Shown: piece after piece, positions 1 through 9,471 of the stretch
How the letters are laid out: each line of letters opens with the position of its first letter
How positions within the stretch are numbered: the stretch's first letter is position 1
From: a virus
IMG/VR virus record: IMGVR_UViG_3300001419_000027
Span: 1 to 31,128 of that record
Length of the DNA: 31,128 bases
Reading direction: 5' to 3' (one strand)
The notes under the pieces: generated by a model
What the model was told of the DNA's origin: nothing
Databases searched by the model: none
The model's input: only the letters and a program-made list of their open reading frames with translations
Position numbers and translations under genes: made by a program

Positions 1-143
1 CTGATCGCAGCCCGGAAGCGATCGGGGTTGTCGAAGGTCCCGATCTGGCTGAGCCACTCGGCGAGCTCCGCATCGGTCGGTTCCCACCGCGGCCAGAGTT
101 CGGCGATCTTCGTCAGCAGTTGCTCGGCGTCAACCTTGAGCAT
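1..143 (-). CDS. Partial gene (N-terminal 47 residues), possible helicase-loader-like protein
   Basis: Only the first 47 codons lie in the window; the frame stays open to the left edge. It begins MLKVDAEQLLTKIAEL and continues with a Trp-rich helical stretch (LWPRWEPTDAELAEWL). A strong ribosome site (GGAGG, 6 nt before ATG) fixes the start, and the gene overlaps the end of the upstream replisome-organiser-like gene by 14 bases. The spacing of aromatic residues and the W-x2-L helix loosely recall phage helicase loader/inhibitor N-termini of the G39P type, and the position right after a replisome organiser fits that. This functional idea is inference only; the real gene is well supported by its start and codon use. 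Confidence 0.6.
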   Translation of the reverse strand, partial: MLKVDAEQLLTKIAELWPRWEPTDAELAEWLSQIGTFDNPDRFRAAI

Positions 144-636
144 CGTTGCCTCCGATCCGCTGGAGCCTCTCGGCGACGGACTCGGCAGCCGGGGCGCGCT
201 GGAGGTCCGCAAGGTCACAGTCCCATCGGTCCTGAGTCAGCCATGTTGAAGGCATGGGCACGAACTTCCCCGACTGCCAGTCGTCGAGCTTCTTGAACGC
301 CTCCAGGGCGGCAAGCACTGTGTCGGCCACGCTGTCGAGGCTCTTGCGATTCCATATCCTCTGGCAATAGGGCTTGGCGCCCTTCCGCTTGTGGCTAGGC
401 CATGCCCGCCAGAACCGCTCGAAGGGGGTGTCGGCGTCGGGGGGTTCGCCGCCGGGCAGGTCGAACAGCGTGGGCAGGGGCCGGTTACGGACCCGTGCAA
501 ACAGTTGCTCGGGCGTGAGCCCGAAGGCGTGACAGACCTTGGCCACGTCGATGTACTCCGAGCTCCAGATCCGCAGCCGGCAGACGCCATGCGTATCGAC
601 CTCTCGGCACTGGACCTTTATCGCCGGCAGGGTCAT
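130..636 (-). CDS. Replisome-organiser-like replication protein
   Basis: A 168-residue protein starting at MTLPAIKVQC. The start is set by an ATGA overlap with the stop of the RusA-like gene and by GGGAG 7-8 nt upstream. The second half carries the pattern of phage replication-initiator C-termini: FERFWRAWPSHKRKGAKP, then a helix, then a closing segment with FVPMPSTWLTQDRWD. In phage replisome organisers this region (F-x2-FW-x-AYP ... P-x-TWL-x2-RW) lies near the part that loads helicase. The N-terminal half has an odd basic/acidic mix and I see no clear DNA-binding domain. It probably helps start phage DNA replication together with the next gene. The domain match is confident in outline; the molecular role is inferred from the family. 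Confidence 0.65.
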   Translation of the reverse strand: MTLPAIKVQCREVDTHGVCRLRIWSSEYIDVAKVCHAFGLTPEQLFARVRNRPLPTLFDLPGGEPPDADTPFERFWRAWPSHKRKGAKPYCQRIWNRKSLDSVADTVLAALEAFKKLDDWQSGKFVPMPSTWLTQDRWDCDLADLQRAPAAESVAERLQRIGGNDAQG

Positions 637-1109
637 GGTTGTATCTCCCGACCATCCGCCGACTCGCACTCGTCTTGCCACTCGCAGACCACATCGACGC
701 CGGGCCGTCCGCCGTACCGCTTGCAGGCGAGCTTGGTGACTACCTGCGAGTCGTCATTCCAGAGTACCCCAGTCAGGGCGTCCATCACCGCACGAGAGAG
801 CTTGTCCACGTCGGGCCGCTTGTCCGGGAACGAGGGGGCGTCGGGCTTCAGCTCGTCGCTGTGCTTGCCGCTGCGGTAGTGGCTCTTAGGGCGAGGCATG
901 TAGAACGTCAGCCGCAGGTACAACGGCCCTTCCAGCGGCTCGCCTTGGAACGCCTGGAAGGCGAAGTGCTTGACGTCAGCCTTCCACGGCTTCGACTTCT
1001 TGCAGGCGTCCGTGAGGATGGGCTTGCCGGTCTTGGGGTTCACGAATGCCCGCTTGCTGCCGGCCGTCTTGGGCTCACCGGGCACGAAGAATTGGATGCT
1101 ATCCATCAT
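633..1109 (-). CDS. rusA: RusA-family Holliday junction resolvase
   Basis: About 158 residues. RusA is a small dimeric endonuclease that cuts four-way junctions symmetrically. The N-terminus has the typical FFVPGEPKTAGSKRAF segment, and the active-site region reads RPDVDKLSRAVMDALTG followed by VLWNDDSQV. Asp100, Asp102 and Asp119/120 correspond to the three catalytic aspartates of RusA, and an arginine sits where Escherichia coli RusA has its conserved lysine. Two adjacent ATGs (1109 and 1106) follow AAGGA by 5 and 8 nt, so the start is uncertain by one codon. It overlaps the end of recT by 11 bases and joins the replication protein by ATGA. Here it would resolve branched replicating DNA before packaging, a job done by gp3 endonuclease in T7. 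Confidence 0.88.
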   Translation of the reverse strand: MMDSIQFFVPGEPKTAGSKRAFVNPKTGKPILTDACKKSKPWKADVKHFAFQAFQGEPLEGPLYLRLTFYMPRPKSHYRSGKHSDELKPDAPSFPDKRPDVDKLSRAVMDALTGVLWNDDSQVVTKLACKRYGGRPGVDVVCEWQDECESADGREIQP

Positions 1110-2067
1110 CGCCGTCCTTGGGCTTCCCGACATCATCGGGGATCAGGTGTCCATCCTCTGTGTACTCAGGCTTCTTCTCGGGGGCAGGCTCGGGGGCCTC
1201 GGCCTTCGCCGGCTCGCCCGTGACCCGGCTCTGCCAATCATCCGAGAGCTTCGCCTGCTGCTTGTCCTTGTACGCCTGAGCCGCCTTGCCGTAGGTGGAA
1301 TCGGGGCTGAGGTCGTACTGCTGGTTATCGTGCTCACAGGCCCGGACGAGCAGGTCGTAGGCGAGGTTGTCGGCCGTCTTGGGGATGTACTTCTGGAGGC
1401 GACGCACGGGGGCCTTCCGCATCATCTCCGTCGGCCAGTCCCGGTAGGCCGGTCCACCCGCCCCTTTGGACGCCTTCTGCACTGCGGCCAACTGCTCGGC
1501 GTTCATCACTTCGATCATTGGTGCGCCGTCACGGGTGTACCCCATGGCGTAGGCGGCGGTCACGAGCTCGACCTTGCCCTGGCTGGCGGCATCGGGCTCA
1601 TGCATCAGGTGCGGCCCCGTCTCGTCCCGCCACCACTTGAAGGGCTCGCCCTCGTAGACCAGGACGCTCTCCACCCGAGTCACGAAGCCTGCGTTGACCA
1701 TGAGCTTGATGAAGCCCCTGTACCCCACCATGAGGGTGCAGATGTTCCCGTAGGGGACGAGGTACGCCTCACCCATCGCCTTGTTGATCGACAGGTCCAT
1801 GCTCGCGCAGGCCACAAGGCTGTCGATCACGCTCAGGGTCACGCACTGCTGGAGCTTCTGCATGGCGCTGCCGCTGGTCGCTATGGTGATCGCTGCCTGC
1901 TCGAGCAGTTGCTTGGTCTTGTGGACCCGTCGATCTTTGTCCAGGTCGCCCGGCCATGCCCGGACAAGCGACGTGCCCGCCTCAATATCAGCCATGAAAT
2001 GCACGCAGTTCCGGGGGTGCCTGAGTGGTGCGTTCACGTCGACTTTTTGTATTGCGCTCTCAGCCAT
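1099..2067 (-). CDS. recT: RecT-family single-strand annealing protein
   Basis: 322 residues (E. coli RecT is 269). RecT proteins coat single-stranded DNA exposed by a partner exonuclease and anneal complementary strands. The diagnostic core is present: CASMDLSINKAMGEAYLVPY followed by a GYRGFIKLMVNAGF segment, then further on MMRKAPVRRLQKYIPKT. The last 50 residues are a charged Glu/Lys/Pro tail, probably disordered, with no counterpart in the short RecT proteins. ATG is preceded by AGGAGA. The gene starts 7 bases after the RecE-like gene, a nuclease-annealase pair in the usual order, and its end overlaps rusA. Confidence 0.93.
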   Translation of the reverse strand: MAESAIQKVDVNAPLRHPRNCVHFMADIEAGTSLVRAWPGDLDKDRRVHKTKQLLEQAAITIATSGSAMQKLQQCVTLSVIDSLVACASMDLSINKAMGEAYLVPYGNICTLMVGYRGFIKLMVNAGFVTRVESVLVYEGEPFKWWRDETGPHLMHEPDAASQGKVELVTAAYAMGYTRDGAPMIEVMNAEQLAAVQKASKGAGGPAYRDWPTEMMRKAPVRRLQKYIPKTADNLAYDLLVRACEHDNQQYDLSPDSTYGKAAQAYKDKQQAKLSDDWQSRVTGEPAKAEAPEPAPEKKPEYTEDGHLIPDDVGKPKDGDDG

Positions 2068-2074
2068 GATTCTC

Positions 2075-3007
2075 CTATCGCATCTCGAAGGCTTCGGCGT
2101 CCTTGACCCACGGCGGCAGCATCATGTCGGCGTGCTCGGTCGGGTAGCCCGGCCACTTGTTGTGCTTGCGGCAGAAGGCGTACTCGGCGAGCTTCGTCTT
2201 GTAGACCTTGCGCCCGAGGTCGAGGAAGGCGAAGGACAGGGCCTCGGGGTCGTCGTGGACATCGAAGGCCCGGGCCAGGTAGGGGGGGAACTTCTCCACC
2301 ACGGCAAAGACGTACCACGTCGGCACGTCCTCCGGCGTCAACCCCAGGGCGATCGCCGCATCGACGTACATGGCCGTGGCAATGTGATAGCCCAGCCGGT
2401 AGGCGACGTTGAAGAAGTCGTCCGCCTTGGCCGACCGGGCGCTCTTGAGTTCCCCGATCACGCCGGCGGCTGTCTTGGCCACGTCGAGCCGGGCCTTGCA
2501 GGTGACGCCCGTGGTCGTGTCCACCCAGACCAGCGAGAGTTCCACGTCGGCGCCGTCCATCAGCGGCCCGAGCTTCTCGTGCGTCCGCACGCTGTCGGCC
2601 ATCGCAAGGGCCTGGTTCATGTCGTCAGCGCTCACGGGCGTCAGCCCCTCGCTCAGCCACAGGGCCATCTGGGCCTTGCACGCCTTCGCCCCGCCGTGCC
2701 AAGGCTTTTCCTCGCCCTTGTCGTTTACGTAGGTCGCCGGCTTCTCGACGAACTCCCCGTCGGCCAACTCAGGCTGAGTCGCGAGCAGATGGAACAGCCG
2801 GCCGAGGGCGTAGTGCGGCTTGTCGTCCTCGATGTGCGTGAGTCGGTGCAGGGCCAGGGCCGGGGTGTGGTCCAGAGCCTTGAGCAGTGAGGCGTTGGCG
2901 GCGTCCCACGAGGCGTAGGTCTCGAACGGTACTCCGGGGTAGACCCCCGGCTCCGGGGCGGGCACTTTGGCGATCACAACCTCGGCTGGCGTGTCATTCT
3001 GTGGCAT
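2075..3007 (-). CDS. RecE-like PD-(D/E)XK exonuclease
   Basis: 310 residues. It resembles the C-terminal nuclease domain of RecE (exodeoxyribonuclease VIII), which resects double-stranded DNA 5' to 3' to feed RecT. Visible motifs in order: GRLFHLLA with His73; ADVELSLVW with Glu156; CKARLDVAK with Asp175; and IGELKSAR with Glu186 and Lys188, the PD-(D/E)XK core. They are followed by YRLGYHIATAMYVDAA, the QxxxY-like helix. The pairing with recT immediately downstream strongly supports the role. The gene starts inside the end of the SMC-like ATPase gene (14-base overlap), so translation is probably coupled. T7 instead uses the unrelated gp6 flap-type exonuclease. Confidence 0.85.
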   Translation of the reverse strand: MPQNDTPAEVVIAKVPAPEPGVYPGVPFETYASWDAANASLLKALDHTPALALHRLTHIEDDKPHYALGRLFHLLATQPELADGEFVEKPATYVNDKGEEKPWHGGAKACKAQMALWLSEGLTPVSADDMNQALAMADSVRTHEKLGPLMDGADVELSLVWVDTTTGVTCKARLDVAKTAAGVIGELKSARSAKADDFFNVAYRLGYHIATAMYVDAAIALGLTPEDVPTWYVFAVVEKFPPYLARAFDVHDDPEALSFAFLDLGRKVYKTKLAEYAFCRKHNKWPGYPTEHADMMLPPWVKDAEAFEMR

Positions 3008-4277
3008 CGGCCTCGTGTCCTTTCACCTGCCCGTCCTCGATGATGACGGTGCAGTCCTTGTCCTCGCCGACTCGCTCGATCCAGACCTGCGCGCCGGCCT
3101 CCGTCGCCATATCCCGCAGCAGGGCCAGATTGGCCTCGTCCAACAGGCTGCCGTCACGGATCAACAGCACCTTGAGGTCCGGGTTGAGAGCCAGGCCCAT
3201 CGCCACGGACACCCGCAATTGCTCTGCCTGTGACGCCTGGCCCAAGGGCAGGCCACCGAACGTGACGCCCTCGTCGTCGAACTCGAGGCCCTCGACCGGG
3301 AACTCCGCTTTCGCCAGGGCCTTCGCCTTGCCCCCGTCGATCTTGGCAATCGCGTTACTGAGCTCGGCTTGCTCCTTCTCTGCCTCCACCAGTCGCTTCT
3401 TCGTGTTGGCGACAGCGGCGTTCTCGCGGACCTTCTGGTTGATGCCCTCGGCTGCGGTGATGCGTTCATGGAGCGGGTCACACTCCACGGTCGGGGCCTT
3501 GTCCGCCGCCTCTCGCAGCCTCTTGGCTTCCGCGTCGATCTCGTCGCGGGCGGCAATCGCCGACTCCAGCCGGGTCTGCGCATCGACCACGGCCTGCTGT
3601 GCTGTCGCTACTGCCCTCGAGGATGCCGCCACATCCTGTTCGGCACGAGTCGCCGCCCCCTGCGCCTCGAATGCCGCCTTGTTGATTCCCTGGGCCTCTC
3701 GGAGATCGCGGGACAGGTCCGCAACGCTGACTTCCTCGGCCGGGGCGTCGGCATGGAACGGCATGGCCTTGACCTGGCCCTTGAGATCCCGCACTCCGCG
3801 GCCGACCGCTGTGCGCTTCTGGTAGAGCGTCGCTCGCTTGCCGTTCTGCTCATCGAAGTTCAGGCCGATGAGTTCCTGGAGCGTCGCCCGCTGGTTTGCC
3901 GGGGGCATGCGCAGGAACGAGAGGGGATCGAAGCTCAGTGGACCCACAAGCTTGTCGAGCATGGCCTGCGGGCTGGGGAATGCTGCCCCTTCCTTGTTGG
4001 CCACGACCAACGAGGTCCGGCCGGCGCTGCCGATGGTCTTGGTCACGACCAAATCATCGAGTTCCACCAAAACACGGGCGGCATCCTCGCCTTGCCTCAC
4101 CGGCACGTCGGGCAGCGACCTCCCGCCGGCCAAGGCGTACTCAATGGCGTCCAGAACGGATGACTTACCCGCCCCATTCTGCCCGCCGATGACGACCATC
4201 GCTCCGCTCGGCTCGATGTTGACGGCGACAAGCCGCTTGACGTTCTCCGCTTCCAGTTTGACGATCTTCGTGCCCAT
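2994..4277 (-). CDS. SMC/Rad50-like AAA ATPase (short SbcC-type)
   Basis: 427 residues. The N-terminus has an ABC-type Walker A, VIGGQNGAGKSSVLDAIEYA (residues 29-48). Residues from about 165 to 305 are Ala/Glu/Arg-rich and should form an antiparallel coiled coil. The C-terminus holds a degenerate signature (ASQAEQLRVSVAMGLALNP, in place of LSGGQ) and a Walker B-like strand reading LKVLLIRDGSLLDEANLAL. There is no Cys-x2-Cys zinc hook. At this size it belongs with the small phage ATPases found beside RecT/RecE genes; most likely it organises or tethers DNA ends for the nuclease, by analogy with SbcC/Rad50. The canonical Walker B glutamate is displaced (RDG rather than DE), which may be normal for this family. 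AAGGA lies 8 nt before ATG. Confidence 0.82.
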   Translation of the reverse strand: MGTKIVKLEAENVKRLVAVNIEPSGAMVVIGGQNGAGKSSVLDAIEYALAGGRSLPDVPVRQGEDAARVLVELDDLVVTKTIGSAGRTSLVVANKEGAAFPSPQAMLDKLVGPLSFDPLSFLRMPPANQRATLQELIGLNFDEQNGKRATLYQKRTAVGRGVRDLKGQVKAMPFHADAPAEEVSVADLSRDLREAQGINKAAFEAQGAATRAEQDVAASSRAVATAQQAVVDAQTRLESAIAARDEIDAEAKRLREAADKAPTVECDPLHERITAAEGINQKVRENAAVANTKKRLVEAEKEQAELSNAIAKIDGGKAKALAKAEFPVEGLEFDDEGVTFGGLPLGQASQAEQLRVSVAMGLALNPDLKVLLIRDGSLLDEANLALLRDMATEAGAQVWIERVGEDKDCTVIIEDGQVKGHEADATE

Positions 4278-4313: not shown

Positions 4314-4393
4314 TAGCGGGGGCGGGCTTTGGACCCGCAGTTTTCAGGAGGGGATAGGGCTCCCGAACGTGTTGCCAGTTACACTACCCCGCA
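4314..4393 (-). tRNA. tRNA-like element with enlarged anticodon arm (possible pseudo-tRNA, Gln-like body)
   Basis: On the minus strand this folds as a tRNA body. The acceptor stem is TGCGGGG with CCCCGCT (six pairs, T-T at 1:72), followed by A as discriminator. The D arm is GTGT/ACAC with loop AACTGGCA containing the invariant GG. The variable loop is AACT. The T arm is GCGGG-TCCAAAG-CCCGC, one base away from the TTCRA consensus. The anticodon arm is abnormal: an 8-bp stem (TTCGGGAG/CTCCTGAA) closes a 9-nt loop, CCCTATCCC, so no standard 7-nt loop or clear anticodon can be assigned. The D arm and first bases resemble glutamine tRNAs. No CCA is encoded. It lies between the conserved unknown gene and the SMC-like ATPase gene. 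The rest of this gap (4394-4541) shows no gene I can support. Confidence 0.5.
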
Positions 4394-4541
4394 GCGTGGC
4401 GAGCAGCCCCGTCAGGCCCATCCGGGGCCGGGCGTCCTTTCCAGTCCCATTCACACCGTTTGCGGGTTCTGGATTATGAAGTTGTCGGGCCACCCTTGGC
4501 AAACCACCGTGGCCTGCCTGCCGCTCGCCGTCGTAGGCTTG

Positions 4542-4919
4542 TCAATCCGCCTCGGGCTCAGCATCGACCGCATCGCCGATGCGCTCCACCGTCAGTTGCC
4601 CCTTGGTCGCTGCGAAGGCGCTGAGTTCGGTCAGGTTGACCTCCCCCTTCGCGAACGTCAGCGACGTTGAGATTTCGCCGGGGCTCAGGCTCAGCCGCTT
4701 GGCGTCCACGATGCTCGTGAGCTTCGGCAGGGCATCGGGCACGAGAGGCTGCTCGCCGCCCGTGACGGCCAGCGTCGCTCGGAGGCGGGCGCCGCAGAAC
4801 AGGTGCTCGGCGTCCTCCAGGTCGAAACCTTCCCGGCTCATTCGCACGCTCAGCCTGGCCGTGCCCTTGCCGACGCCCACATTGCCGAAGTCAACATTGA
4901 TCGTTCGCTGCTTTGCCAT
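4542..4919 (-). CDS. Conserved phage protein of unknown function, recombination operon
   Basis: 125 residues starting MAKQRTINVDFGNVGVGKG. The longer open frame reaches 5048, but the internal ATG at 4919 is chosen because AAGGAACCGAACG stands directly before it, a copy of the leader found before several other genes in this phage, and because the protein upstream of it looks random. The composition is beta-strand-rich with a short acidic tail (DAVDAEPEAD) and one cysteine in the phrase LFCGARLRATLAV. I do not recognise a named family. Proteins with this look occur beside phage RecT and small SMC-like ATPases, and an acidic tail is also seen in single-strand binding proteins, but there is no OB-fold motif I can point to. 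Confidence 0.75.
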   Translation of the reverse strand: MAKQRTINVDFGNVGVGKGTARLSVRMSREGFDLEDAEHLFCGARLRATLAVTGGEQPLVPDALPKLTSIVDAKRLSLSPGEISTSLTFAKGEVNLTELSAFAATKGQLTVERIGDAVDAEPEAD

Positions 4920-6967: not shown

Positions 6968-7086
6968 GCCTTTCTCCGGGTCGGCGGATGCGGGGCGGGA
7001 AAACCACACTCCGCTCGATCATTCCCCGAATCGGCCCTGACGGGTACGAGTCCGCCGGCCCCACACCTATCTCAAGGACGAGAACA

Positions 7087-9471
7087 ATGGTGGAGCATCT
7101 GCTCGACGGGTCCGCGTACTCCGATGAGCTCGACTGCGAGCGTGAAGCACACAGCCGGGGGGTTGCCCGGTACCGCCGTCTGGTCGCCGAGGCGGTGGAC
7201 CGCGGGGACGGCGCCGCCCTCAAGCCCGTCGAACGCCTGCTCGTCCATTGGTTCCGCGTGTATTCGTCCGTCATCGCGGCCGAGAAGGCGGCAATCACCG
7301 CACGCCGGCCGAGCAAGGGGCGCAGGGTCTACGGCCCCCTCCTCCAGCAGCTTGATTCGGCGACCCTGGCCGTCGCCGCTATGCACGAGGCCCTCGGCAA
7401 GTGCCTCTCCGAGCCGACCGGGGTGAAGGTGGCGACGCTCTCCCTGGCCATCGGCCGTTCGGTCAACGCCGAGATCAACTACGACAAGCTCCGCAAGGAG
7501 AACGACGAGGCGTGGAGCGCCCTGCTGCATACCGACCGAAAGAAGATCAAGGCAACGCACGTCAACCGCATCGCCAACAAGTTCCGGATCGGCGAGAAGT
7601 GGAGCCTGCGGAATCAATGCCACGTCGGGGCCAAGCTGCTCGAGCTACTCATCAAGGTCGCCACGATAGCGGACTTCGACCAGCCGCGGGATCCGGCCTT
7701 TGAGATATTCACTCGGCGCCGAGGGGTCCGGATCGTCAACGTCACCCGCCTGACTCGCCGGGCCGTGCAACTGATCGAGGATGGCCACTCCGTCCGGGAA
7801 CACCTACGACCTCGGTACCAGCCGATGCTCGTGCCGCCGATGTCCTGGACGGATCAGGAGCGGGGCGGGTATCTCGAGCTCCCGACCGAGTTGGTCAAGA
7901 AGGCCGACCGCTCCAAGGTCAAGGCCGACACCGAGACCATCCGGGAAGCCGTCAACGCACTCAGTGCTACTCCGTGGCGGATCAACCGGGCAGTGCTGCC
8001 AATCGTGCAGGCGCTGTGGGCGTCCGGCGGCGCGTGTGCGGGCCTGCCCCGTGCCGGCAACCTGCCGATGCCCCCCCTCCCTGCCGACTGGAACGAGAAC
8101 GAGGCGGCGAAGAAGCTGTGGAAGCGGGAGGCCGCGGGGATCCGCCGCCGCAACGCCCAGGAACAGGCTGAGCGGATCGTGTTCAAGCTCAAGCTCGACG
8201 TCGCCGAGCGATTTGCTGACCGACCGGCGATCTACTTTCCGCATCAACTGGATTTCCGCACGCGGGCGTACCCGATCCCCCTGTTCCTGCACCACCAAGG
8301 GGATGACATCTGCCGGGGCCTGCTGGAGTTCGCCGAGGCCCGGCCCATGGCAGCCGAGGGCCGGCAATGGCTCCTTGTGCACATGGCCAACTGCTGCGGC
8401 GTTGACAAGGCCAGCTTCGATGACCGCATAGCCTGGGCAACGTCGAGCTTGCCGGCGATCAAGGGCTGGGCCACTGCCCCCCTCGACAACACCGGCTGGA
8501 TGGAACTCGACAAGCCGTGGCAGGCGCTCGCCGCCGCGATCGCCCTGAACAACCCGGAGGCCGCTACGCACCTGCCCGTTCAACTGGACGGGAGCAACAA
8601 CGCCCTCCAGCACTACGGGGCGATGCTCCGCTGCGAGCAGACGGGGCGAATGGTGAACCTCCTGCCTGCCGATGCCCCGCAGGATGTGTACGCCAAGGTC
8701 GCCGCCCAAGTCGCTGCCATCGTCGAGCAGGAAGCGGCGGACGGCATCCCTGAGGCGAAGCTGCTGACCGGCTGGATTGACCGGAAGATCGTCAAGCAAA
8801 CCGTGATGACCTCCGTGTACGGAGTAACGAAGGTTGGGGCTCGCCGCCAGGTGTACGCCCACCTGAAAGACGCCGGCTTCGACCAAGATGATCTCTACGC
8901 CGCCAGCCGGTACCTCGCCAACAAGTGCCTCGCGGCCAACAAGATCGTCTGCGTTGCTGCTCATGCGGCGATGGATTGGCTGGCGTGCTGCGGGAAGCTG
9001 ATCGCTCGCACGGGGCAGCCGATCCGGTGGACGACGCCCTTGGGCGTTGTGGTCGAACAACCCTACCGCCGGGCTCGCGTCAAGGCGGTCGTCACCATGC
9101 TGCAATCCATTCACTTCAACGAGCGAGACGAGAAGTGCCCCATCAGCCCGCAACGCCAGGTCAACGGCTTCGCTCCGAACTGGGTACACGCCATGGACGC
9201 CTCGCACATGATGTGCACCGCCATCGCCTGCCGTGACGAGGGGCTCCGCTTCGCCGGCGTGCATGATTCCTACTGGACGCACGCCGCCGACGTGGGCCGC
9301 ATGAACGAGATCCTACGCGAGCAATTCGTGCTCCTGCACGAGGAGCCGGCCCACCTTCGGTTATTCGACGAACTTATAGCTGAATACCCCGACATAAGTT
9401 TCCCTGAACCGCCCCAGGTTGGGAATCTGGACCTAAGAGCCGTCATGGCCAGCCGTTACTTCTTCTCGTGA
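7087..9471 (+). CDS. Single-subunit phage RNA polymerase (T7 gp1-like)
   Basis: 794 residues (T7 enzyme 883). It transcribes phage genes from phage-specific promoters. Motif A: PVQLDGSNNALQHYGAM with catalytic Asp501. Motif B: KQTVMTSVYG with Lys570 and Tyr578, same spacing as T7 Lys631/Tyr639. Motif C: GVHDSYWTHAADV with His726 and Asp727, equal to T7 His811/Asp812. The protein ends in YFFS, an aromatic C-terminus like the T7 FAFA foot that lies near the active site. An upstream in-frame ATG exists at 6988, but AAGGACGAGAACA before the ATG at 7087 and the acidic MVEHLLDGS start favour 7087. The 119-base gap upstream (6968-7086) shows no clear promoter. Its stop overlaps the next start (GTGA). 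Confidence 0.95.
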   Translation: MVEHLLDGSAYSDELDCEREAHSRGVARYRRLVAEAVDRGDGAALKPVERLLVHWFRVYSSVIAAEKAAITARRPSKGRRVYGPLLQQLDSATLAVAAMHEALGKCLSEPTGVKVATLSLAIGRSVNAEINYDKLRKENDEAWSALLHTDRKKIKATHVNRIANKFRIGEKWSLRNQCHVGAKLLELLIKVATIADFDQPRDPAFEIFTRRRGVRIVNVTRLTRRAVQLIEDGHSVREHLRPRYQPMLVPPMSWTDQERGGYLELPTELVKKADRSKVKADTETIREAVNALSATPWRINRAVLPIVQALWASGGACAGLPRAGNLPMPPLPADWNENEAAKKLWKREAAGIRRRNAQEQAERIVFKLKLDVAERFADRPAIYFPHQLDFRTRAYPIPLFLHHQGDDICRGLLEFAEARPMAAEGRQWLLVHMANCCGVDKASFDDRIAWATSSLPAIKGWATAPLDNTGWMELDKPWQALAAAIALNNPEAATHLPVQLDGSNNALQHYGAMLRCEQTGRMVNLLPADAPQDVYAKVAAQVAAIVEQEAADGIPEAKLLTGWIDRKIVKQTVMTSVYGVTKVGARRQVYAHLKDAGFDQDDLYAASRYLANKCLAANKIVCVAAHAAMDWLACCGKLIARTGQPIRWTTPLGVVVEQPYRRARVKAVVTMLQSIHFNERDEKCPISPQRQVNGFAPNWVHAMDASHMMCTAIACRDEGLRFAGVHDSYWTHAADVGRMNEILREQFVLLHEEPAHLRLFDELIAEYPDISFPEPPQVGNLDLRAVMASRYFFS

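Follow-up and report, generated by a model that had tools for sequence, protein, structure and literature searches.

What is a phage doing with an RNA that has the body of a tRNA and an anticodon arm three base pairs too long? The question is raised by a short element on the minus strand of the window (the whole 31,128-nt stretch of an IMG/VR viral record analysed here), which lies in a gap within a leftward set of genes. We asked whether the structure is real, from what it derives, and which roles would fit its sequence, its surroundings and its counterparts in related phages.

Fold and detection of the element

Read from 4393 to 4314 on the minus strand, the RNA is UGCGGGG UA GUGU AACUGGCA ACAC G UUCGGGAG CCCUAUCCC CUCCUGAA AACU GCGGG UCCAAAG CCCGC CCCCGCU A (Table 1). 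The cloverleaf is its unconstrained minimum free energy fold (-34.5 kcal/mol, z -3.2), a stability equalled in 1 of 200 shuffles. Pairing is complete in the D stem (4/4), the anticodon stem (8/8, including one G.U) and the T stem (5/5), and six of the seven acceptor pairs form, the open one being U1.U72. The body thus has the dimensions of a tRNA cloverleaf (7-bp acceptor, 4-bp D stem, 5-bp T stem and 7-nt T loop), with 1-72 open as in initiators, while the anticodon arm departs from the canonical 5-bp stem, 7-nt loop and U33 in having 8 bp and the 9-nt loop CCCUAUCCC. Among the nucleotides of the tRNA elbow, C56 and G18G19 are present and C replaces U55; C55 and G60 of the T loop weaken the elbow. 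The initial annotation had described a tRNA-like element with an 8-bp/9-nt anticodon arm, which the fold, the pairing counts and the simulations described below confirm, and had put the excess in the arm at about 8 bases, in agreement with the 25 nt found here against the usual 17. Its description of the acceptor, D and T arms as intact holds for the stems and the GG of the D loop, but the T loop (UCCAAAG, with C at 55 and G at 60) is not fully canonical. Given these features of the anticodon arm and T loop, the element is not classed as a functional tRNA.

Table 1. Positions of the tRNA-like element, its parts and adjacent features in the window, and members of a separate tRNA-like family in other phages
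Feature	Position	Strand	Remarks
Whole tRNA-like element	4314..4393	-	N1 = 4393, discriminator A73 = 4314; CCA not encoded
Acceptor 5' strand UGCGGGG	4387..4393	-	Same sequence in Planctomycetota initiator tRNA
D arm GUGU-AACUGGCA-ACAC, with A14, G18G19 and A21	4369..4384	-	
Expanded anticodon arm, 8-bp stem UUCGGGAG/CUCCUGAA, 9-nt loop CCCUAUCCC	4343..4367	-	Includes the initiator UCGGG strand; CAU absent
T arm GCGGG-UCCAAAG-CCCGC	4322..4338	-	
Acceptor 3' strand CCCCGCU, U72 opposite U1, then A73	4315..4321	-	Same in 6/6 Planctomycetota initiator tRNAs
AAA/SbcC-like ATPase gene, first after the element	2994..4277	-	Pfam AAA_23, phrog_1499; start codon 36 nt from A73
orf4919, upstream gene of the element	4542..4919	-	Homologue in L324 also precedes a tRNA-like element
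Sigma-70-like promoter match TTGCCA-18-CATAAT (10/12)	4473..4502	-	Between orf4919 and the element; consensus match only
Hairpin-insert family (other phages)	L145:2473-2558; L155, L163, L164, L176, L178, L186, L187, L188, L192, L201, L216		Related: L183, L153, L196

At default settings ARAGORN called no tRNA in the window; with introns allowed, its sole match in the window was a tRNA-Gly(ccc) with a 6-nt 'intron' at exactly 4314-4393. The Rfam tRNA model (RF00005) gave no match to the element even at E<=10. Since standard tRNA finders miss the element, similar RNAs may be overlooked. The window's IMG/VR record contains no second copy. A pattern search for expanded-arm tRNAs returned chiefly tRNAs whose variable arm is long, together with a single unrelated family, and a literature search for expanded anticodon arms in phages, with subscription papers mostly outside its coverage, found none.

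Could such a cloverleaf have arisen by chance in GC-rich sequence? GC-rich stems form easily, and a perfect body appears about once per ten simulated windows (113 matches in 1,200 order-2 Markov windows, or 0.094 per window). When an anticodon stem of 8 bp or more in the correct place was also required, however, none of the 1,200 gave a match, a result to be read with caution as the descriptor was written after the element had been seen. The homology evidence is independent of that descriptor: a 19-nt match to the D arm is found elsewhere only in tRNA genes, and the acceptor is the same as that of initiator tRNAs. We reject chance as having practically no likelihood.

Relationship to Planctomycetota initiator tRNAs

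Sequence comparisons indicate that the element descends from a Planctomycetota initiator tRNA (fMet type). The reference set comprised initiator tRNAs from six Planctomycetota genomes, a typical one reading UGCGGGG UA GAGC AGUUGGUA GCUC G UCGGG CUCAUAA CCCGG AGGUC GCAGG UUCGAGU CCUGC CCCCGCU A. Their 5' acceptor strand is UGCGGGG in five and CGCGGGG in one, and the element equals five of the six at both acceptor strands, U1.U72, A73 and positions 8-9 (U8A9). It has the acceptor features of initiators (1-72 mismatch, G2-C71, C3-G70, A73) and also shares G26, the UCGGG strand of the anticodon stem and the lack of an encoded CCA. The initiators, in contrast, have CAU in the 7-nt loop of a 5-bp/7-nt arm and A11-U24, in keeping with the purine11-pyrimidine24 pair of initiators, whereas the element has its 8-bp/9-nt arm, U11-A24, and C55 with G60.

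In the D and T stems the element differs from the Planctomycetota initiator at three pairs, and all three are double compensating changes. The same pattern is seen against the tRNA-Met of the related phage L323, where four pairs have changed at both positions and no pair at just one. The claim that the body had been selectively preserved, made in the initial annotation, draws support from both comparisons, and the compensated changes may predate the change in the anticodon.

Among 606 tRNAs, the best matches to the 3' half of the element were the tRNA-Met(CAU) genes of L323 and L335, two phages fetched for their RNA polymerase and not for their tRNA. These and the tRNA-Met(CAU) of L265 resemble the element in N1.U72, A73, the T arm and the 3' half, and those of L323 and L265 also in being placed in a gap before a phage gene, which they directly precede, but in all three the anticodon arm is of the normal 5-bp/7-nt form with CAU. 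In the related T7-like phages, tRNA-Met(CAU) genes of initiator type, whose 1-72 pair is a weak G.U or a mismatch, lie at L323:10244-10319, L387:503-575 and L265:11739-11810. The D arm is nearly the same as in an initiator-type phage tRNA-Met of L161, and its 19-mer TAGTGTAACTGGCAACACG is found exactly in six other viral contigs of IMG/VR, always within tRNA genes (five Gln, one Gly). A first reading as a tRNA-Gln derivative, taken from this 19-mer, was replaced after comparison with the tRNA-Met of the relatives and the Planctomycetota initiators. A tRNA-Gly(CCC) reading, prompted by the ARAGORN intron call and the attachment site described below, was dropped, as the whole acceptor fits the initiator better than Gly.

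Genomic setting and elements in related phages

Genes of the phage include a single-subunit RNA polymerase and a T7-type terminase. Contig IMGVR_UViG_3300005512_000106 (38,908 bp) is of the same species, at least 99.98% identical over the stretches compared, and carries an identical element; it is the only close relative found, and a DNA search of GenBank phages gave no relative. Beyond this same-species copy no orthologue of the 8-bp arm was found, so that selection on the arm cannot be shown. On the longer contig there is also a tyrosine integrase and, after it, an attP made up of 40 nt from the 5' part of tRNA-Gly(CCC). Exact copies of this 40-mer occur in at least 117 genome stretches, mainly from Planctomycetota/Phycisphaerae with other phyla also represented; several of these loci (L065, L090, L104, L050, L143, L144) carry integrases of 36-43% identity near the same tRNA-Gly, and relatives of the RNA polymerase are present in Phycisphaerae MAGs. 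The virus is temperate and T7-like, with a host that is probably in the Planctomycetota and, from these matches, probably one of the Phycisphaerae.

The T7-like RNA polymerase and terminase are joined in this genome with a lambda-like RecE/RecT/RusA/replication-initiator set (window 130-4277 on the minus strand and 6988-9471 on the plus strand), with the integrase in the longer contig. In the phage group (L026:631-686, minus strand; L401, the record of L331) the attP comprises about 40 nt from the 5' part of tRNA-Gly(CCC) and adjoins the integrase gene, lying immediately after it in L026. Phages usually contribute the 3' half of the tRNA rebuilt at an attachment site; with the 5' part in the attP, it is instead the 5' half of the rebuilt host tRNA, together with any promoter, that comes from the phage.

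The leftward set comprises, in order, RNase H, orf4919, the element, the AAA/SbcC-like ATPase, a RecE-like protein, RecT, RusA and a replication-initiation-like protein. The element begins 148 nt past orf4919, and the promoter-like match at 4502-4473 would put a transcription start just upstream of it. No Pfam or PHROG match was found for orf4919, and homologues of it were found only in the phage L324 (IMGVR_UViG_3300035698_010335) and one Planctomycetota genome (G017:C5), the latter copy without a tRNA-like neighbour.

L324 is 45% identical to the window phage in the RNA polymerase, 48% in the AAA protein, 41% in RNase H and about 30% in orf4919. A tRNA-like element follows its orf4919 homologue by 23 nt and precedes the next start codon by 41 nt; its anticodon arm is of 6-bp/10-nt form, and its score of 34.8 bits in RF00005 exceeds the family cut-off. 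An expanded-arm element after a homologue of the same upstream gene is further support for preservation of the body. The two need not be orthologues, as the D arm and acceptor in L324 are of another tRNA type, and coincidence alone would produce the shared position in perhaps about 1 in 10 cases, given that L324 has two elements in 21 kb.

The second element of L324 has an 8-nt anticodon loop, as does that of L257; the L259 element has a 6-nt loop and a D loop without GG, and the L260 element is without a D stem. Five noncanonical elements (that of the window and four from three relatives) have retained 99 of 106 stem pairs (93%), with anticodon loops of 6, 8, 8, 9 and 10 nt; the noncanonical elements of the group are all intergenic, mostly before a start codon. 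The 6-, 8- and 10-nt loops in the relatives suggest a recurrent path. When eight tRNAs and tRNA-like elements were aligned, double changes were found at 13 of 16 body pairs and 92% of cells were paired, which speaks for a shared fold and not for selection on the window copy, as the alignment mixes in true tRNAs of several types. Odd anticodon loops occur in 9 of 443 background phage tRNAs called by ARAGORN (about 2%) against about half of the eight or nine in this group, a small and non-independent sample. No tRNA-like element lies beside the AAA gene in the AAA-based relatives (L003-L012), and most RNA polymerase relatives have none in the sequence examined.

Possible roles of the element

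We tentatively favour, at somewhat less than an even chance, a non-decoding derivative of an initiator tRNA, carried by a temperate T7-like phage in its leftward early operon, kept for its fold and probably serving as an RNase P/RNase Z processing element. Host RNase P and RNase Z would recognise the transcript as a pre-tRNA and cut before 4393 and after 4314. By the predicted cuts the message of orf4919 would be parted from that of AAA-RecE-RecT, in which the first start codon lies 36 nt beyond, and a small stable RNA unable to decode would be released. As the element stands between two genes that presumably share a transcription unit, a processing site, possibly with a stable product, is the simplest model to work with. 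RNase P and RNase Z chiefly read the acceptor-T helix, which would leave the anticodon arm free to change, and the acceptor-T stack of the element has 11 pairs plus U.U against the 12 positions of a substrate of these enzymes. Its place in the presumed leftward unit, ahead of the AAA gene, is where such a signal would be expected. The P4 CI RNA and phi80 M3 RNA are tRNA-like RNase P substrates in phage RNAs and, like the element, have a tRNA-like fold within a phage transcript, but their sequences are unrelated and the element is a putative substrate. As a processing signal it would be a tRNA-based counterpart, in a T7-like group, to the RNase III sites of T7.

Decoding in the P site and charging with methionine are not expected of an arm three pairs too long and without CAU and the U33 context, given what is established of MetRS and initiator tRNA, and the lack of CAU and the overlong arm make the 'odd decoder' proposed in the initial annotation very unlikely. 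Explanations of phage tRNAs usually take them for decoders or nuclease-resistant replacements; an initiator acceptor kept without AUG reading fits neither.

Decay of a captured host initiator tRNA gene, in which a single insertion or recombination event remodelled the anticodon arm and the remainder is not yet broken down, is a strong competing account, though a less likely one, that fits the data nearly as well, provided that the compensated changes arose while the tRNA still worked. The acceptor is still the same as in Planctomycetota tRNAs, U55 is lost, CAU and any Rfam score are absent, the L259 and L260 elements have loop or D-arm damage, and most relatives have no tRNA at all. Set against this, the six stem substitutions make up three complementary pairs, when six changes placed randomly on 32 paired positions would by our own arithmetic fall on three whole pairs with a chance of about 6e-4, before complementarity is considered; the new arm is itself paired throughout its 8 bp, and L324 also has an expanded-arm element after orf4919.

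Readings in which the RNA acts in trans or still works as a tRNA fare less well. We consider it unlikely that a lineage of temperate T7-like Planctomycetota phages has converted tRNA genes, the host initiator among them, to RNAs that no longer decode, carry rebuilt anticodon arms and affect initiation or tRNA-targeting defences in trans. About as unlikely is that the processed RNA of the element is a decoy, uncuttable at the anticodon, for tRNA-binding host factors such as initiation or formylation factors or tRNA-cutting toxins, e.g. VapC, which cleaves initiator tRNA. The initiator acceptor features are indeed kept and the anticodon, the target of anticodon nucleases, is removed, but formyltransferase and IF2 act on charged tRNA, and without CAU no methionine charging is expected; nor is any defence gene linked to the element. 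Phage tRNAs with altered anticodon loops have been proposed to evade anticodon nucleases (PMC10264068), which would favour a decoy. These are likewise changed in the anticodon arm, but they carry point changes in the loop, are treated as decoding and still decode, while the arm of the element is remodelled.

A working tRNA, be it an initiator or tRNA-Gly(CCC) after splicing of a short insert, or a phage tRNA replacing the host tRNA-Gly of the attachment site, we regard as very improbable. ARAGORN does give tRNA-Gly(ccc) once 6 nt are ignored, and the attP falls in a tRNA-Gly(CCC) gene, but the whole acceptor is closer to the initiator than to Gly, and we know of no intron type in which 6 nt are removed from a bacterial anticodon loop. 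Replacement would correspond to tRNA-dependent lysogeny, in which the attP core is about 10 bp (PMC10865867). Both cases involve a temperate phage that carries a gene derived from a tRNA and has its attachment site in a tRNA; in place of a short, non-rebuilding core and a phage tRNA of the same isotype, however, the 40 nt of the tRNA-Gly 5' part found here rebuild the host tRNA-Gly(CCC) gene on integration, and the element is initiator-type and cannot decode.

A separate phage tRNA-like family, in which the anticodon loop carries a small inserted hairpin on its 3' side, was also observed (Table 1). One of its sequences, tried against GenBank phages, found no match. Changes on both sides occur at 11 of its 24 pairs, and the scanned members above the cut-off score 41-50 bits as tRNA.
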